Source: a virus. Taken from it: DNA of 64,000 nt. Location: positions 62,001-126,000 of the IMG/VR virus record IMGVR_UViG_3300007735_000804; one strand, written 5' to 3'. The notes under the pieces were generated by a model. That model saw only the letters and a program-made list of their open reading frames with translations. It was not told where the DNA came from and did not search any database. Below, one piece after another: positions 2,302-20,654 of the stretch (the first letter of the stretch is position 1; each line of letters opens with the position of its first letter). A program made the position numbers and the translations under genes.

Positions 2302-2835
2302 TCAAAGGTAATAATAATTTGAGAATGATTTACTTCTCATTCTCCAACTCACAGTATCTTTGTGGATACCAAGCATTCTAGCACATTCTTTTACAGATTC
2401 ATAAGTCACACCATCAACTGAACACTTTTTGCTCATAGATTTTGAAAGATTTTTTTTATGTTTGTCGGTAAGAGAAATTCCTTTATTTGGATGAGTATTA
2501 TTTTTCCAATATTTTTTTTGAGACTTACGCATTTTCTCAATGGAATCTTTCGTGTGTTTTGCTCCCCATAATGAATTTAAGGAAGGATTTAACCACTCAC
2601 AATATTGTTGTTCTACTGATTTAATTTCTTCATCTTCGTGAATCCACTTAACTACTTCAATAGTAAAATTATGGTATCCATACTTTAAAAAATTTTTATA
2701 AAGTTTGGGACAATCCATCTTATTAGAAGCACACATCGTTATATGTTTAGCAAACCTAAGCATATAATTTTTTTCAGTAGAACCTATGTAGTTTTCTCCT
2801 GTTATTTTATTTCTTATTTGATAAATGCAACTCAT
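2302..2835 (-). CDS. GIY-YIG homing-type endonuclease (Seg-like)
   Basis: The 177-residue protein begins CIYQIRNKITGENYIGS, the GIY-YIG nuclease core (Y5, Y16-I17-G18), with a conserved arginine at R27 (MLRFAKH). The middle (NTHPNKGISLTDKHKKNLS) looks like the NUMOD3 DNA-binding repeat. The end (DGVTYESVKECARMLGIHKDTVSWRM) looks like a NUMOD1 helix-turn-helix. This is the architecture of free-standing phage homing endonucleases such as T4 Seg proteins. It is inserted between gp44 and a conserved unknown gene with no sign of an intron. It has its own late promoter and a hairpin over the start codon (see 2829-2883). Confidence 0.93.
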   Translation of the reverse strand: MSCIYQIRNKITGENYIGSTEKNYMLRFAKHITMCASNKMDCPKLYKNFLKYGYHNFTIEVVKWIHEDEEIKSVEQQYCEWLNPSLNSLWGAKHTKDSIEKMRKSQKKYWKNNTHPNKGISLTDKHKKNLSKSMSKKCSVDGVTYESVKECARMLGIHKDTVSWRMRSKSFSNYYYL

Positions 2836-3813: not shown

Positions 3814-4499
3814 CAACCAAAAGTGGAATCGGGTTCCAGAGCAATATAATACTTCAGGTTATACTTGGTATTCGTGAATTGTGACAGAAGTTTAGAAGAT
3901 ACCACCACATCATAAGCACCAGGAATAATCTTGATATTTTCTACCTTGAAGTTAAAAATGAATTCAGCATCGGTCTCACCAACCACAATGGCATATTCGT
4001 TAGAAGTATCATTCTTCTTATCACGAACCACCAGTTTGATTACACCATTCTCACCAACCGCAGACAGGTCAGGCAGTTGATACACTGCTGCTGCCTTTAC
4101 CAGTTTCTCCAGAGAGGTACTATCCAGTTGGAAGCAAACATCTGCTGAAGGCAGTTGAATTGCCTTATCAGGAGGAGAAATAATGACGTTAGGGTCAGCA
4201 TAGAAATACTTTACCCGACGCTTACCTTCCTTGATGCTCAAATAAGATTCTTCAGTAAAGTCAAGATCAGGATCCTGATGAAGTCCCAGACCATTCAGAA
4301 ACTGGTTCAAGTCGTAGATAGCAAAGTCACGAGGAAACTCTTCGGTGATGTCTGCTTCCGCAAGAATATTCTTTGCCACAGAAATGGTACGAAGTTGAGT
4401 ACCCTGTTTCACAAGAATTGAGTTGTTGATACCTGCAAAGTTCTTGAGAAGGGCAAGGGTGTTATCAGAGAGTTTCATAGTTTTGTTTTGAATTTTCAT
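3813..4499 (-). CDS. 45: DNA polymerase sliding clamp gp45
   Basis: The block MKLSDNTLALLKNFAGIN aligns by eye with T4 gp45 (MKLSKDTTALLKNFATIN). Further conserved parts are FAIYDLNQFL, YFYADPNVI and the C-terminal ALEPDST. The trimeric ring tethers the polymerase and, in T4, also activates late transcription with gp55 and gp33. An in-frame ATG at 4497-4499 lies 2 nt after the upstream stop, and the T4-like start MKLS is at 4476-4478. Neither has an obvious Shine-Dalgarno, so the start is uncertain by seven codons. The next gene overlaps its stop. Confidence 0.93.
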   Translation of the reverse strand: MKIQNKTMKLSDNTLALLKNFAGINNSILVKQGTQLRTISVAKNILAEADITEEFPRDFAIYDLNQFLNGLGLHQDPDLDFTEESYLSIKEGKRRVKYFYADPNVIISPPDKAIQLPSADVCFQLDSTSLEKLVKAAAVYQLPDLSAVGENGVIKLVVRDKKNDTSNEYAIVVGETDAEFIFNFKVENIKIIPGAYDVVVSSKLLSQFTNTKYNLKYYIALEPDSTFG

Positions 4500-4884: not shown

Positions 4885-5997
4885 TCAGAAAGGTGCTTCG
4901 TGGTCAACTTGCTGCGTAGGAAGTTCAAAATTAACATCAATTTTATCGTAGAGTTCCAAGAAAGATTGCTTGGTCTCATCATCAAAACGATTGACGCAAA
5001 CCTGAATTGCCTTTGCCTTGTCGTTAAAAATACTGTAAGCACGAATGATATGAACCAGACGGCGGGTGCTGATGATTTCCTCAATACCACCATCATAGAA
5101 CGTTTTACGGATCACGTCCGCCCAATCAACCAACCGTTTACAGAAATCACGATCTTCCACTCCAAGGTCCAGAGCAATGCCTTCCAGAATCTTCTGCTCG
5201 GTCGCAGGGGCAGGATAGGACTGCTCAAAGGTCACAGGGAATCGTTCCAAGAAAGCTTCGTTGAGCACATTGGTGCCGATGAATCGACCATCATCAGAAC
5301 CCTTACCTTTGGTGTTGGCGGTTGCGATGACGTTAAAACCAGCAGCAGGTTTCACAAAACGACCAATCTTCTTCAGGAACACACCTTTACCTTCCAGAAT
5401 AGACTGAAGGCACAGGATCTTGTTAGAAGCAAGGTCAATCTCATCCAATAGCAGCACGGCACCACGCTCAAGTGCTTCCACCACAGGACCATTATGCCAG
5501 ACGGTTTCACCATTCACCAGACGGAATCCACCGATCAGGTCATCTTCATCAGTCTCAATCGTAATGTTCACACGAATCAGTTCACGCTTGAGTTGGGCAC
5601 ACGCTTGTTCCACCGAGAACGTTTTACCATTACCCGACAGACCCGTAATGAACGCAGGGTAAAAGATACGGGACTGAATAATCTTTTTAAGATCACCAAA
5701 GTTACCAAACTTGACGAAGGTATCATCTTTATCAGGAATAAGGTTTTGTTCGATAGTAGGAAGAGCAGCAGGTGCTTGATAAGAACGCTCAATCTCTTCA
5801 ACTCGATCTTGAGTCACTTCTAGATTCCAACGACCACGAGCAGTCTTGTATTGCTCAAGACGACGAGAAACAGTCTGATAGTTCAAACCACGAGAAGCAC
5901 AAAAACCTTTGAGATCTCCAGAGGTAATTTCAGAACCGTAGAGTTCTTGAATAGAAGCAATCAGTTGTTCGTCTTTCAAAGCAAGTTTGCGAGGCAT
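4885..5997 (-). CDS. cobS: CobS-like MoxR-family AAA+ ATPase
   Basis: This 370-residue ATPase has an N-terminal helix-turn-helix-like part (GSEITSGDLKGFCASRGLNY, about residues 21-50). Walker A GLSGNGKT is at 119-126, Walker B VLLLDEID with D184/E185, then a sensor ATANTKGKG and an arginine-finger region ISTRRLVH. Cyanophage genomes usually carry this gene as cobS, after the cobaltochelatase ATPase subunit. No CobN-type chelatase gene is in the window, so a role in cobalamin synthesis in the host is only one option. A MoxR-type chaperone role with the nearby VWA protein (6853-9000) is the alternative. It has its own TATAAT-box promoter behind a terminator. Confidence 0.9.
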   Translation of the reverse strand: MPRKLALKDEQLIASIQELYGSEITSGDLKGFCASRGLNYQTVSRRLEQYKTARGRWNLEVTQDRVEEIERSYQAPAALPTIEQNLIPDKDDTFVKFGNFGDLKKIIQSRIFYPAFITGLSGNGKTFSVEQACAQLKRELIRVNITIETDEDDLIGGFRLVNGETVWHNGPVVEALERGAVLLLDEIDLASNKILCLQSILEGKGVFLKKIGRFVKPAAGFNVIATANTKGKGSDDGRFIGTNVLNEAFLERFPVTFEQSYPAPATEQKILEGIALDLGVEDRDFCKRLVDWADVIRKTFYDGGIEEIISTRRLVHIIRAYSIFNDKAKAIQVCVNRFDDETKQSFLELYDKIDVNFELPTQQVDHEAPF

Positions 5998-9907: not shown

Positions 9908-10043
9908 AAAATGAAAAAGCGTCCCCGTGTTGGAGACGCTTCTTGAGTGCTTGGCGGCGTGCCTTTGCTTGTCGGAGTGCCTGCGGTTTCAGTTTCCGCT
10001 TCTGCTCCTTTTTGGAATGGTGGTAGCGATTGGGAACTTGCAT
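9903..10043 (-). CDS. Small very basic protein, 46 aa, unknown
   Basis: The ATG at 10041-10043 opens a 46-residue ORF whose middle is extremely basic (KKEQKRKLKPQALRQAKARR). Its composition suggests a nucleic-acid-binding peptide. The final codons are formed by a strong terminator hairpin and by the late promoter of the next gene, so coding, termination and promotion overlap here. The GC-richer codon use differs from its surroundings. A TTGACT about 60 nt upstream of the start could be part of a promoter. I am not sure of a homologous family. Confidence 0.6.
   Translation of the reverse strand: MQVPNRYHHSKKEQKRKLKPQALRQAKARRQALKKRLQHGDAFSFL
9906..9941 (-). terminator. Terminator overlapping the end of the 46-aa ORF
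   Basis: On the minus strand AAGCGTCTCC pairs with GGGGACGCTT (one G-U pair) across the loop AACAC, followed by TTTCATTTTT. The hairpin lies inside the coding sequence, ahead of the stop codon. Confidence 0.88.
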
Positions 10044-12084: not shown

Positions 12085-13122
12085 TTACTCTACTTCGCAA
12101 GCTTGCCGATAAAGATCCTGAAAAATACCTTTGATCACATTTTTGTCAAAATCAAATTCTGCTTCGTCAATATAACGATTTAGAATTGACATTGTGTTTT
12201 CTTCTTCATCAATCTCAAAGTCTTCATTTTCTTGAATATCAAAGTTCTCAACGATTTTAAGATCTTGAATTCCTACTGTATAAAGTTTATCAATGAACTT
12301 TTCAAAATCTTTTGGTTTTGATTTTTTACGAACAATCACTTTGACAATTTTATTTTCATACTCGGTTGCATCAAACAATTGATACGGAGTATCCTCATAA
12401 TAGATGTTATAGAATAATTTATAAGGATTGTTGATTGGAGTATGTTCTAATGTTTCGGTGTCAAAAATATGAAATCCACGAGTGTCATTCAAATCTGTCC
12501 AATACATTTCATAAGGATTGCCAAGATAGAAGATGCGTCCGTTATCAGAACGAGTATGGTAATGACCAGAAAATACTTTTGTGAAGTTCTTAAAAATATC
12601 TGCGTCCAGTCCATGCTCCTCCATAATCAAATTGCGATTGACACGGAACCCTTGAAGTTCTAGGTGTCCCATCGCAATCTTTGCTTTAGTTTTTTTAATT
12701 TGCTTTAAAGTTTGTTCCTGATTTTCTGGATTAATCCAAGGAATAAACATTATCTTAAGTCCACCAACTGTAACTTCTTGTGCTTCACTATAAGTTTTTA
12801 TATTTGAATAAGTCTGAAGAAGAAGACCTGGTGAATTGACACTATTAGTTGATTTGTAGTATGTGTCATGATTTCCAATAATCATATGAACATCATACTT
12901 TTTCAAATGATCAAACACAACTCGTTTTGACCATTCAAGACTTTGATAATCAATAGACTTACGACTATCAAAAGCATCACCCATATGAATGACTGCCTCT
13001 ACCCCCTGTTCTTCAAGGGTAGGAAAAAATACATTCTTGTAAAAGAGTTCAAAGTAATCGTGAAGATACTTTGATCCTTTTTTGGCACCGTAGTGGGTGT
13101 CGGTTATTAAACCAATACGCAT
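12085..13122 (-). CDS. 47: Recombination endonuclease subunit gp47 (SbcD/Mre11-like)
   Basis: The 345-residue calcineurin-like phosphoesterase shows the metal-binding motifs in order: ITDTHYG (D8, H10), HMGDAFD near 47-52, IIGNHDT near 82-88, GHLELQG and FSGHYHTRS. It is the nuclease half of the gp46/gp47 complex used in end resection. It is close in length to T4 gp47 (339). It follows the HNH endonuclease gene by 8 nt and is one base from the next ORF. Confidence 0.96.
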   Translation of the reverse strand: MRIGLITDTHYGAKKGSKYLHDYFELFYKNVFFPTLEEQGVEAVIHMGDAFDSRKSIDYQSLEWSKRVVFDHLKKYDVHMIIGNHDTYYKSTNSVNSPGLLLQTYSNIKTYSEAQEVTVGGLKIMFIPWINPENQEQTLKQIKKTKAKIAMGHLELQGFRVNRNLIMEEHGLDADIFKNFTKVFSGHYHTRSDNGRIFYLGNPYEMYWTDLNDTRGFHIFDTETLEHTPINNPYKLFYNIYYEDTPYQLFDATEYENKIVKVIVRKKSKPKDFEKFIDKLYTVGIQDLKIVENFDIQENEDFEIDEEENTMSILNRYIDEAEFDFDKNVIKGIFQDLYRQACEVE

Positions 13123-13130
13123 AATAAGTC

Positions 13131-13715
13131 TTAACTAGATTTCAAGTATAACACAGCAGACTCAAGAAAGTCAATGTTATCAAAAAACATTCCCAAACCA
13201 ATATTACAATTTTTACACAATAATCCTCTAATTTTTCCAGTTTCATGATTATGGTCTACTGCTAAACTTTTTCCAGTAGGACATTCATTATTACATATTT
13301 TACATTTTTCATTTTGCTTTTCTAACAAAAAATTATAATCTTCTAAAGTAATTCCATAATTTGTCTGTAAATAAGTATCTTTTACATTATCTTTGTTGTT
13401 ATAATAGTATTCTCTACATTTTTGTTTAGCAATATCATTTTTATATTGCTCTTGATATTTTTCAGGATTTTTTGCTCTCCACTCATCCAATTTCTTTTTC
13501 TTCTTTTCCTTTGTCCTATAAGGTTTCATCAACTCTTCATTATTGAGTTTTTCTAACCCTTTCCTTTTTAAACAAGGAGCACAACTAGAAGTAGAAACAT
13601 ACTTTTCATAACTACCACAATGTTTACAAGCAGTAGAACCGATATAAGTTTTTTTACCTTCTTTTATTGCTTGCAATCTATTTTGTCTTCCAACACCACT
13701 ATATTGATTGGTCAT
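13131..13715 (-). CDS. HNH/endonuclease VII-like homing-type nuclease
   Basis: In this 194-residue protein the C-terminal half carries the endonuclease VII-type signature CKICN, then LAVDHNHETGKIRGLLC and CKNCNIGLG: two zinc CxxC pairs flanking a DHxH core. The N-terminus has a second possible zinc finger (CKHCG with CAPC). A long basic helix (KEKKKKKLDEWRAKNPEKY) lies between. Free-standing enzymes of this type act as homing endonucleases or resolvases in phages. It is inserted between gp55 and gp47 with its own late promoter and an RBS-masking hairpin. Confidence 0.88.
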   Translation of the reverse strand: MTNQYSGVGRQNRLQAIKEGKKTYIGSTACKHCGSYEKYVSTSSCAPCLKRKGLEKLNNEELMKPYRTKEKKKKKLDEWRAKNPEKYQEQYKNDIAKQKCREYYYNNKDNVKDTYLQTNYGITLEDYNFLLEKQNEKCKICNNECPTGKSLAVDHNHETGKIRGLLCKNCNIGLGMFFDNIDFLESAVLYLKSS

Positions 13716-13759
13716 AATGCTCCGTAATGTTATTATTATTTATAACACTTTGGAGCAAT
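13716..13759 (-). promoter_or_regulatory. Late promoter inside an RBS-masking hairpin, HNH gene
   Basis: On the minus strand TTGCTCC (upstream) can pair through TGCTCC with GGAGCA just before the ATG, closing a 28-nt loop (13724-13751) that contains TATAAATA (13737-13744). The GGAG in the 3' arm is the ribosome binding site. Transcripts started from the late promoter would lack the 5' arm, leaving the site free; read-through transcripts from gp55 would hide it. Confidence 0.7.
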
Positions 13760-13760
13760 A

Positions 13761-14297
13761 TCATTTACTACTGCGATACTGAATAGCATCTTTAATGCTG
13801 TTGTATTCACTACTATGCCCAGAAAGCAAGCTGTCATCAACCATCATAACCTCATCAAACCCAGTGCGTTCGATGATTTTTGTCTTAATGTCCAACTGTT
13901 TCTTTTCCTTCTGAATCCTTCTCAAAAATGCGTAATGAATAATTTGAGTAAAATAAGCAAAAGGATTATTTGATTTTTCTGGATCAAAATTATGAATGTA
14001 CTGAACACAATTTTCAATTCCGTCAGAAATCATATCCTCACGGAACATGTAATTCACAAAGTTTGGTTTATATGATAAATGAGTCGCAATTTTTAGAAAA
14101 CATTCTCCAAGATAATTTGGAATTGGAGGTTTACCTTCCCATTGTTTTGCACGATCCTCTCTAGTTGGATTTCGTGCATTTCTCTTAAAAAAATCTGCTT
14201 CAACTTTAGAACGATAAACTATAAGTGCTTCTAGTAGTTCTTTGTTGTTTACATAATGTTCAGTTTTTTTCTTGGACATAACATTGGACTCATTCAT
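13761..14297 (-). CDS. 55: Late sigma factor gp55
   Basis: The 178-residue protein matches the short sigma-70-related late factor of T4-like phages (T4 gp55, 185 aa). Typical blocks are NYLGECFLKIATHLSYKPNFVNY, read as separate parts, then DMISDGIENCVQYIHNFDP and NPFAYFTQIIHYAFLRRI, the region-2-like core that recognises the TATAAATA box. With gp33 and the gp45 clamp it directs host RNA polymerase to late promoters, many of which are in this window. The start could be ATG 14297 or the in-frame ATG six codons on (MSKKK). A sigma-70-type promoter lies 20 nt upstream. Confidence 0.94.
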   Translation of the reverse strand: MNESNVMSKKKTEHYVNNKELLEALIVYRSKVEADFFKRNARNPTREDRAKQWEGKPPIPNYLGECFLKIATHLSYKPNFVNYMFREDMISDGIENCVQYIHNFDPEKSNNPFAYFTQIIHYAFLRRIQKEKKQLDIKTKIIERTGFDEVMMVDDSLLSGHSSEYNSIKDAIQYRSSK

Positions 14298-14311: not shown

Positions 14312-14341
14312 ATTATAACACACTTTAAAAGGACTTGACAA
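14312..14341 (-). promoter_or_regulatory. Sigma-70-type promoter for gp55
   Basis: On the minus strand TTGTCA (14336-14341) and TATAAT (14312-14317) are 18 nt apart, 14 nt upstream of the gp55 ATG. This fits early or middle expression of the late sigma factor. Confidence 0.7.
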
Positions 14342-14390: not shown

Positions 14391-14798
14391 TTAGCTTTCT
14401 TTAATACCTTTAAAGATTCTTTCAAGTTTTTTGCGAGCATCTTCAACGGAAGAAATATAACCCATCTTTGAGGATGGTTTTACCTTACCTGAAGGATTGT
14501 ATACATCAATTGAATCATCATCTTCAATATAATTATTGTAAATATTAATTAATCTTTTATCTTTAGTTTCAGTCATTGTAATAATTTTGTCAAGTTTAAT
14601 CATAAAAAAATCATCACTTGACATTTCAATCCATGGTTTAACCTTAAGATGTGTTCCATGTTGATTGGTAAATGCTTTCATAGTTACTGGATTTTGAAGA
14701 ACAATGACAGGATCGCCTTCATTTTCATCTACCATGACCAATGATAGAATCTCCTCACCAGATACTAGTTTAATAATTGCGTAGAACTCTTCTCCCAT
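14391..14798 (-). CDS. Conserved cyanophage protein with LSm-like N-terminus
   Basis: In this 135-residue acidic protein the first 50 residues (YAIIKLVSGEEILSLVMV, then VIVLQNPVTM) have the strand pattern and SGEEI/NP motifs of an Sm-like fold. The C-terminal part is charged and helical (VEDARKKLERIFKG). Cyanophages carry this gene regularly between uvsW and gp55. RNA binding is suggested by the fold resemblance only. It starts on the last base of the uvsW stop (TAATG). Confidence 0.75.
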   Translation of the reverse strand: MGEEFYAIIKLVSGEEILSLVMVDENEGDPVIVLQNPVTMKAFTNQHGTHLKVKPWIEMSSDDFFMIKLDKIITMTETKDKRLINIYNNYIEDDDSIDVYNPSGKVKPSSKMGYISSVEDARKKLERIFKGIKES

Positions 14799-17304: not shown

Positions 17305-17322
17305 TGAAGAGTGAAGACTAAC

Positions 17323-18772: not shown

Positions 18773-19963
18773 TCACTTTCTAGAAACTCTTTGAAGAGTC
18801 TGAAGATAAGCACCCATTGTGCCGCCAACTGATTGAATATTTAAATCAGTTTCCTCAGACAGATTTTCACTAGCGTTTCTTTGAGTACCAGCAGTTCTGG
18901 TTGGGAAGTATGATTCCCTCAGAGTTACCAGTTTCTCACGATAGCTCTCTTCACTATCAAACTCAACATTTTCGGCAAGAGAAGCGAGTTTGTCCTTCTG
19001 AGAAAGTGCAAGACCCTCAGTGACTTCAGCAAAGATTACATCAGCAACCGACTCTGCTAATCTTCTATTCAGAGCAACGTTTCTTTCGATTTGCTCGTTG
19101 AGTTTTTCTTCCATTTCATCAAGTTTATCTACCATACTCTCGATAACATCATATCTATCTTCAGGGATTGTTACATAATGATCTTCAAAAAGACTCTTCA
19201 TTCCTGCAAGGAATGATTCAGTCATTTCAGTCTTAAGACCGTGCTCAACTGCAAGTGCATTTTCGAAAATCCACTCGTCAGCGACATACTCAAGGTATGC
19301 ATCAACACGATCAGTTAGACCTTCTTTGATTGCTTCGATTTCTTCTACGAGTGCTTGCTCGTATGAAGATTGAAGTTGCTCTTTGATTTCAGCAACTCTT
19401 GATCTAATTGCTGCTTCAAAGATGGTGCGTGCTTTCTCTTGGAATTCTTCAGAAAGCTCCTCACCTTCTAGAAGAGCATTGACATCCTCTTCAATACTGA
19501 ATTCTTCTTCAGTTTCTACTTCTTCTTTGCACTCTTCTTCATCATCCGATGATGCCTTCATTCCTTTCTTTCCGTTCTTTCCGTTCTTTCCTTTAGGATC
19601 CATTTCATCCTCACCACCCTCGGCATATTTCTCAGCGACTACCTCTTCGTCCTCATCGAGTTCTTCCTCATCGACGAGATCCTCGTCCTCTTCGGTTTCC
19701 TCTTTAGCCACAGCCTTCATTGGTTCTGCAGCTGCTGCCTTTGCATTTACAACATTCTTGACCTGAGCAAGAGTTGCACCTGGAGTTTTTAGTGCTGCTG
19801 AACTATCATCTGGGCGATAGTTTTCTGGAGTAGGACCACCTAGATCCTCCCAACCACCAGTTTGACCAGGCGTAGCCCCGTCTAGTTTGTGCATTGGTTC
19901 GGCAGGTGCAGCCCCTTTGGTTACTACGTTTTCCATTTCTTGTAAATTTCTACCAACGGACAT
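18773..19963 (-). CDS. 22: Prohead core scaffold protein gp22
   Basis: The 396-residue, strongly acidic, helical protein sits between gp21 and gp23. It has an E/D-rich low-complexity centre (EEDEDLVDEEELDEDEEV) and a lysine/glycine patch (KGKNGKNGKKG), then long charged helices and many E-rich sites suited to gp21 cleavage. It forms the internal scaffold of the prohead and is degraded on maturation. It is longer than T4 gp22 (269). A TATAAATA promoter lies upstream. Confidence 0.93.
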   Translation of the reverse strand: MSVGRNLQEMENVVTKGAAPAEPMHKLDGATPGQTGGWEDLGGPTPENYRPDDSSAALKTPGATLAQVKNVVNAKAAAAEPMKAVAKEETEEDEDLVDEEELDEDEEVVAEKYAEGGEDEMDPKGKNGKNGKKGMKASSDDEEECKEEVETEEEFSIEEDVNALLEGEELSEEFQEKARTIFEAAIRSRVAEIKEQLQSSYEQALVEEIEAIKEGLTDRVDAYLEYVADEWIFENALAVEHGLKTEMTESFLAGMKSLFEDHYVTIPEDRYDVIESMVDKLDEMEEKLNEQIERNVALNRRLAESVADVIFAEVTEGLALSQKDKLASLAENVEFDSEESYREKLVTLRESYFPTRTAGTQRNASENLSEETDLNIQSVGGTMGAYLQTLQRVSRK

Positions 19964-19993
19964 TTTTTTAGATCTTTGTTTATAATCTATATT

Positions 19994-20001
19994 TATTTAT
20001 A
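19994..20001 (-). promoter_or_regulatory. Late promoter TATAAATA for gp22-gp23
   Basis: A perfect late promoter box lies 30 nt upstream of the gp22 ATG, just after the gp21 stop. Confidence 0.85.
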
Positions 20002-20003
20002 AA

Positions 20004-20654
20004 TTATAGATTTGAAAGAAAATCAGTGAAGAGATTAAGTTTATGCTCTTCAAGTTTTCTTTGATCTACAAGAGTGTTAATTCTTTTTTGAGTTTGTTCG
20101 ACAAGTCTTTCACGAAGAATGCCGCCTTCCCAAACCCATTCTTTACCTTCCATAATTCCCTGAACAAATGCATCGGGAGCAGAAGGATCGGCAACGATAT
20201 CAGCAGCAGTTGCTAGCATGAAATCTTCACCAACAATTTTATGACCCTCATTGGTCATCTTAAGTGAACCAACACCACGAGAAGAAACGCCTAGACAAAC
20301 ACCTTCACCAATAAGTGATTTTGCAATTTTACCCATTGGTGTTTCTAGAAGTTGTGCTTTGCCTCTAAAATTATTTCCTTCTTGTGTTAAAGAAACAATT
20401 TTATGTGAAACACGATCAAGATTGACAGTAGGTCCATCTGGGTGACCAAGTTCTCCAAGAGCACGACCTTTAACAACAAATGTCTCATTATATCTTTTTA
20501 CTTCACGTGAAAGAGTTTCCATTGGATACATTCTTCCATTACGATTACAGATATCACCCTGAAGGAAAATGCCCTCGATATACATTTTCTTTTCAGCACC
20601 CTTACCTTCGGTGATGAATTTAACTTTTGATACTTCTTCTGTGATGAGTTTCAT
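20004..20654 (-). CDS. 21: Prohead core protease gp21
   Basis: This 216-residue protease matches T4 gp21 (212). Conserved parts are YIEGIFLQGDICNRNGRMYP, in blocks, GELGHPDGP with catalytic His71, and GVSSRGVGS with the serine at 124 or 125, the His/Ser pattern of prohead serine proteases. It cleaves the scaffold and capsid proteins after a glutamate. It starts 2 nt after the preceding structural ORF. Confidence 0.96.
   Translation of the reverse strand: MKLITEEVSKVKFITEGKGAEKKMYIEGIFLQGDICNRNGRMYPMETLSREVKRYNETFVVKGRALGELGHPDGPTVNLDRVSHKIVSLTQEGNNFRGKAQLLETPMGKIAKSLIGEGVCLGVSSRGVGSLKMTNEGHKIVGEDFMLATAADIVADPSAPDAFVQGIMEGKEWVWEGGILRERLVEQTQKRINTLVDQRKLEEHKLNLFTDFLSNL

Follow-up and report, generated by a model that had tools for sequence, protein, structure and literature searches.

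A late-promoter box within a ribosome-binding-site hairpin between gp55 and an inserted Endonuclease VII-type gene of T4-like cyanophages: a probable timing switch

The window analysed here is a stretch of 64,000 nucleotides taken from the 213-kb contig of an uncultured T4-like cyanophage. In the gap between a gene for a gp55-like late sigma factor and the nuclease gene that follows it, the window holds a hairpin and a late-promoter box. All elements lie on the minus strand and are listed below from upstream to downstream.

14312..14341, minus strand: predicted early (sigma-70-type) promoter TTGTCA-18-TATAAT before gp55, from a consensus match
13761..14297, minus strand: gp55-like late sigma factor gene, the upstream neighbour (Sigma70_r2 domain; 80% identity to S-SKS1 gp55), with its stop codon at 13763-13761
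13757-13752, minus strand: 5' arm of the outer stem, TGCTCC, from pairing and fold; covaries with the 3' arm
13749-13742, minus strand: 5' arm of the inner stem, AGUGUUAU, from the fold
13744-13737, minus strand: late-promoter box TATAAATA at the hairpin tip, from a motif match
13733-13726, minus strand: 3' arm of the inner stem, AUAACAUU, from the fold
13732-13730, minus strand: predicted late 5' end, some 6 nt downstream of the box, placed by T4 late promoter geometry
13723-13718, minus strand: 3' arm of the outer stem, GGAGCA, which includes the GGAG ribosome binding site (RBS) at 13723-13720, from pairing, fold and start-site accessibility
13131..13715, minus strand: nuclease of 194 amino acids with a C-terminal Endonuclease VII domain (PF02945), from the Pfam match (E 8e-24), structure-sequence similarity and relatives
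13145..13174, minus strand: sigma-70-like promoter TTGACT-18-TATACT ahead of gp47, within the 3' end of the nuclease gene, from a consensus match and remnants in relatives
12085..13122, minus strand: gp47-like recombination nuclease subunit, the downstream neighbour (Metallophos domain; gp47 position in annotated relatives)

Residues 116-192 of the nuclease match the PF02945 profile with 83.8 bits against a curated cut-off of 23.6, which places the protein in the Endonuclease VII family. A match to T4 gp49 covers residues 129-177 and, among solved structures, Hpy99I and T4 Endonuclease VII are close to it in sequence. Its N-terminal Cys-rich domain is shared with HNH variants found among the relatives. 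A second Endonuclease VII gene is present in the same record (C1:7667-7903) and carries GGAACTC..GAGTTCC and a T run directly 5' of its own TATAAATA; at that gene, a terminator-like stem before the late box may take the place of the hairpin.

The pairing of TGCTCC with GGAGCA around a 28-nt interval, with GGAG inside the 3' arm and a perfect late box between the arms, had been predicted from the letters of the window and is confirmed at the coordinates given above. The original prediction had also called the stem short and its strength uncertain, a view that has to be revised, as the 28-nt interval adds a second stem and the whole element consists of 6 bp, a 2x2 internal loop and 8 bp closed by an apical loop of 8 nt. 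This 14-bp hairpin has a minimum free energy of -15.8 kcal/mol (z -5.78), was equalled in stability by none of 200 dinucleotide shuffles and persists in longer folded segments (z -3.5). In the computed fold the GGAG is buried within it. The 4 nt between GGAG and the nuclease ATG at 13715 are a short spacing, which counts against a switch. A search of Rfam gave no credible match to the element, only a sub-threshold miRNA match.

The box at the hairpin tip agrees with NATAAATA, which has been reported as a late promoter motif in cyanophage S-PM2 (PMC2984593). Ten copies of TATAAATA occur in the window against 7.3 expected, which is no excess over chance; the 213-kb record has 18 copies, every one of them on the minus strand, which is also the strand of the long window ORFs, and several of those in the window are located 20-45 nt upstream of start codons, as late promoters should be. 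A transcript starting at the predicted position, around 13731, would be devoid of the 5' arm.

Relatives of the nuclease are encoded on 70 viral contigs, and among named phages no close DNA relative spanning the region was found. A total of 52 distinct leaders was chosen by start-codon context and the presence of an ATA(A/C)ATA box, so that relatives lacking the box fall outside this set. Of the 52, 49 have z < -2 (median z -6.1), in line with the expectation that related phages with the insert carry complementary arms; in L019 and L049 the box stands without a hairpin, and folds are weak in L015, L016 and L044. The leaders are of three types: TGCTCCATAGTG..CACTATGGAGCA; TGCTCCGTAATG..CATTACGGAGCA, whose loop is longer; and TTTCTAACTCC..GGAGTTAGAAA. 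The box stays in the loop despite a variation of 8 to 20 nt in the spacing between the arms, and nearly all 52 leaders show a Shine-Dalgarno (SD)-like sequence in the 3' arm, near the ATG. In four further sequences (L001, L052-L054) the palindrome is kept while loop and box are lost (TTTCTAACTCGAGTTAGAAA; GTGCTCCGTAATGCTATAGCATTACGGAGCA), possibly through deletion or assembly error. Box and hairpin are both absent at the nuclease of the more distant ACG-2014f isolate Syn7803C19 and of RHph_I1_18. At the same site the isolate S-SRM01 combines a nuclease with an AT-rich hairpin that bears TATAAATA (z -2.0), a layout that makes the idea of a switch testable in culture.

Covariation was assessed on a manual alignment of 36 distinct arm sets, anchored at the CC/GG pair, and both-sided change was found at nine of the 14 pairs. 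Cells changed on both sides numbered 59 against 29.0 in shuffles, a count reached by none of 500 shuffles, in a control that ignores the relatedness of the sequences; in the slid-register control, which takes relatedness in, 89.9% of cells are paired in the true register and 31-46% in the slid ones. The number of further pair types in the 36 arm sets is not in excess over shuffles. The covariation picture was unchanged in a first set of 23 sequences aligned with MAFFT.

The computed probability that the GGAG of the window gene is unpaired rises from 0.002 in read-through RNA to 0.88 in late RNA, modelled from six bases past the box with its 5' end placed by T4 geometry; averaged over the 52 leaders the values are 0.07 and 0.49, a contrast that is partly built in, because trimming the 5' flank makes any start site cheaper to open. 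These models, in which RBS and AUG region would be paired as in a T4-type switch, support together with the covariation and the conservation of the box in the loop the earlier proposal of an RBS that is masked in read-through RNA and of a late RNA devoid of the 5' arm. In this genome 46 NATAAATA sites precede possible starts, and among the 14 listed in full one other RBS region is similarly masked. It lies near position 162231 of the genome (G000:C1), where a hairpin that holds CATAAATA adjoins the start of an ORF of 156 aa, and it is 0.21 unpaired against 0.20 at the nuclease.

The promoter before gp55 agrees with the consensus at 11 of 12 positions and has TG ahead of the second hexamer. Terminator-like matches with large stems on the same strand are located at 17305, upstream, and at 9944, after gp46; the others are weak stems of five pairs at 14477, which precedes the gp55 promoter, and at 12552. 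An RNA reading through the hairpin is thus likely, given the early-type promoter before gp55 and the weakness of the terminator-like sites ahead of the end of gp46.

Taken together, we consider it highly probable that the gp55-nuclease gap serves as a timing switch, in which a translation lock on early RNA is bypassed by late RNA. Early RNA started before gp55 would run through to gp47 and gp46 and carry the whole hairpin, in which the GGAG and the region beside the AUG would be paired, so that the nuclease would remain untranslated while gp47 and gp46 downstream would still be translated. Once gp55 is made, late transcription would begin inside the hairpin at TATAAATA and the resulting RNA, without the 5' arm, would allow translation of the nuclease. 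A hairpin may have been preferred here to a terminator, since the latter would deprive gp47 and gp46 of transcription as well. Such a switch would extend a classic T4 timing device, on strong comparative evidence, to T4-like viruses of the cyanophage type, and suggests how a nuclease gene inserted into an early operon may be accommodated there with no terminator.

The inverted repeat might instead work as DNA, either as an operator through which the nuclease represses its own gene or as a cruciform substrate, the RNA hairpin being a by-product. The repeat overlaps the promoter, and Endonuclease VII cuts branched DNA. Furthermore, I-TevI acts as a repressor of its own late promoter by way of a site similar to its homing site (PMC2988022). 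Mispairs do not discriminate either, as G.U is not clearly above A.C (49 to 37, hand sum over pair positions -6 to 7) and the pattern does not favour RNA over DNA. Nevertheless, a rigid two-part operator would poorly tolerate an arm spacing that varies from 8 to 20 nt, the SD-like sequence sits in the 3' arm near the ATG of nearly all leaders, the same hairpin is carried by HNH variants and not by Endonuclease VII genes alone, and a resemblance between arm and gp47 target failed its test; we therefore regard this explanation as unlikely.

The resemblance in question concerned the 3' arm and the T-H-Y-G-A codons near the gp47 start, the one candidate target for an operator of the I-TevI kind. 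At the junction the best match reached 9.44 of 13 against 7.96 in controls. The candidate was dropped when matches to a leader's own gp47 stood at 7.66 of 13 against 7.96 for shuffled pairs (p 0.99; 29 of the 52 leaders could be paired) and when stronger matches were found elsewhere in the genome, so that the site is not special genome-wide and no operator resembling its target was recognized.

It is very improbable that the nuclease gene is a plain late gene in which the function resides in TATAAATA and the hairpin serves, for example, RNA protection or processing with no effect on translation: other late boxes of the genome are without such hairpins, but this reading is opposed by the covariation and by the placement of the SD-like sequence within the arm throughout the 52 leaders. 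A chance inverted repeat in AT-rich DNA, to which the apparent shortness of the stem and the chance-level count of the box had lent some colour, is already refuted by the stability relative to shuffles and by conservation with compensatory change, and its probability is negligible.

The cyanophage switch proposed here would act in the manner of regulators that have been described in phage T4. The logic of an RBS hairpin combined with a late promoter has been described for I-TevI, I-TevII, I-TevIII, segB and Aeh1 mobE (PMC2988022), and masking of the RBS or AUG for T4 e, soc, 49 and I-TevI (PMC3014915). T4 gene 49, which encodes Endonuclease VII, is alike in nuclease family and in its RNA-masked initiation region (PMC3014915), but it lies at a different locus, whereas the cyanophage gene sits between gp55 and gp47 and has a Cys-rich N-terminal domain. 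In I-TevI, I-TevII and I-TevIII an RBS hairpin likewise forms on upstream RNA and is escaped by RNA from a late or middle promoter (PMC2988022), although these enzymes are intron-encoded and I-TevI and I-TevII belong to the GIY-YIG family. Aeh1 mobE, an HNH nuclease gene, and T4 segB are free-standing genes with an RBS hairpin and a late promoter (PMC2988022), from nuclease families and insertion sites other than those seen here. The lysozyme gene e and soc are also masked at the initiation region on long RNA, and late promoters (TATAAATA) of e yield RNA without the 5' strand (PMC3014915); they differ in not being nucleases. The original comparison, the same logic as I-TevI in an unrelated nuclease family, holds against I-TevI but not more widely, since T4 gene 49 is itself Endonuclease VII and I-TevIII and Aeh1 mobE are HNH enzymes. 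Within the limits of our literature searches, no report of such hairpins in cyanophages was found.

The nuclease insert is found at the junction of gp55 and gp47 on every listed contig that bears both flanks, while most of the gp55 relatives listed have gp47 directly after gp55; it is absent in S-SKS1, P-SSM2 and S-SCSM2R. The ACG-2014f isolates Syn7803C19 and US26 differ in that the nuclease gene at this place in Syn7803C19, an HNH gene, is present in one and absent in the other. This presence and absence at a single site is what would be expected of a free-standing homing endonuclease. Behind the leaders, a shared N-terminal domain is joined to an Endonuclease VII domain or to HNH domains (four HNH examples, two of which score under Pfam's own cut-off), so that the nuclease domain varies behind a hairpin, a promoter and a protein N-terminus that remain similar. 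It is conceivable, and we propose it tentatively, that a portable regulatory unit, made up of hairpin, late promoter and N-terminal domain, is maintained at gp55|gp47 in T4-like cyanophages while catalytic domains (Endonuclease VII and HNH types) are exchanged behind it, and that the nuclease 3' end provides a gp47 promoter able to outlast the nuclease.

Three contigs without the nuclease (L111, L113 and L130) have a short remnant of its 3' end with an element of the TTGACT-18-TATACT type before gp47. At the same junction L123 has a different insert, with TATAAATA within a hairpin (2935-2992; z -1.8). A second insertion site with Endonuclease VII relatives lies between DUF3110 and gp46 (L043, about 3930-3977; L050, about 5720-5770; L099, about 4218-4262), where unrelated hairpin arms surround an ATAAATA box and single folds have z -1.4 to -1.9.

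Two other starts in the window have a similar appearance. The AUG of a GIY-YIG nuclease gene (2302-2835, minus strand) lies within a strong hairpin at 2815-2890 (z -4.86), with TATAAATA just upstream, so placed that a late transcript would be missing part of the 5' arm. At 19960-20030, TATAAATA lies within an inverted repeat before a 396-aa ORF that starts at 19963.
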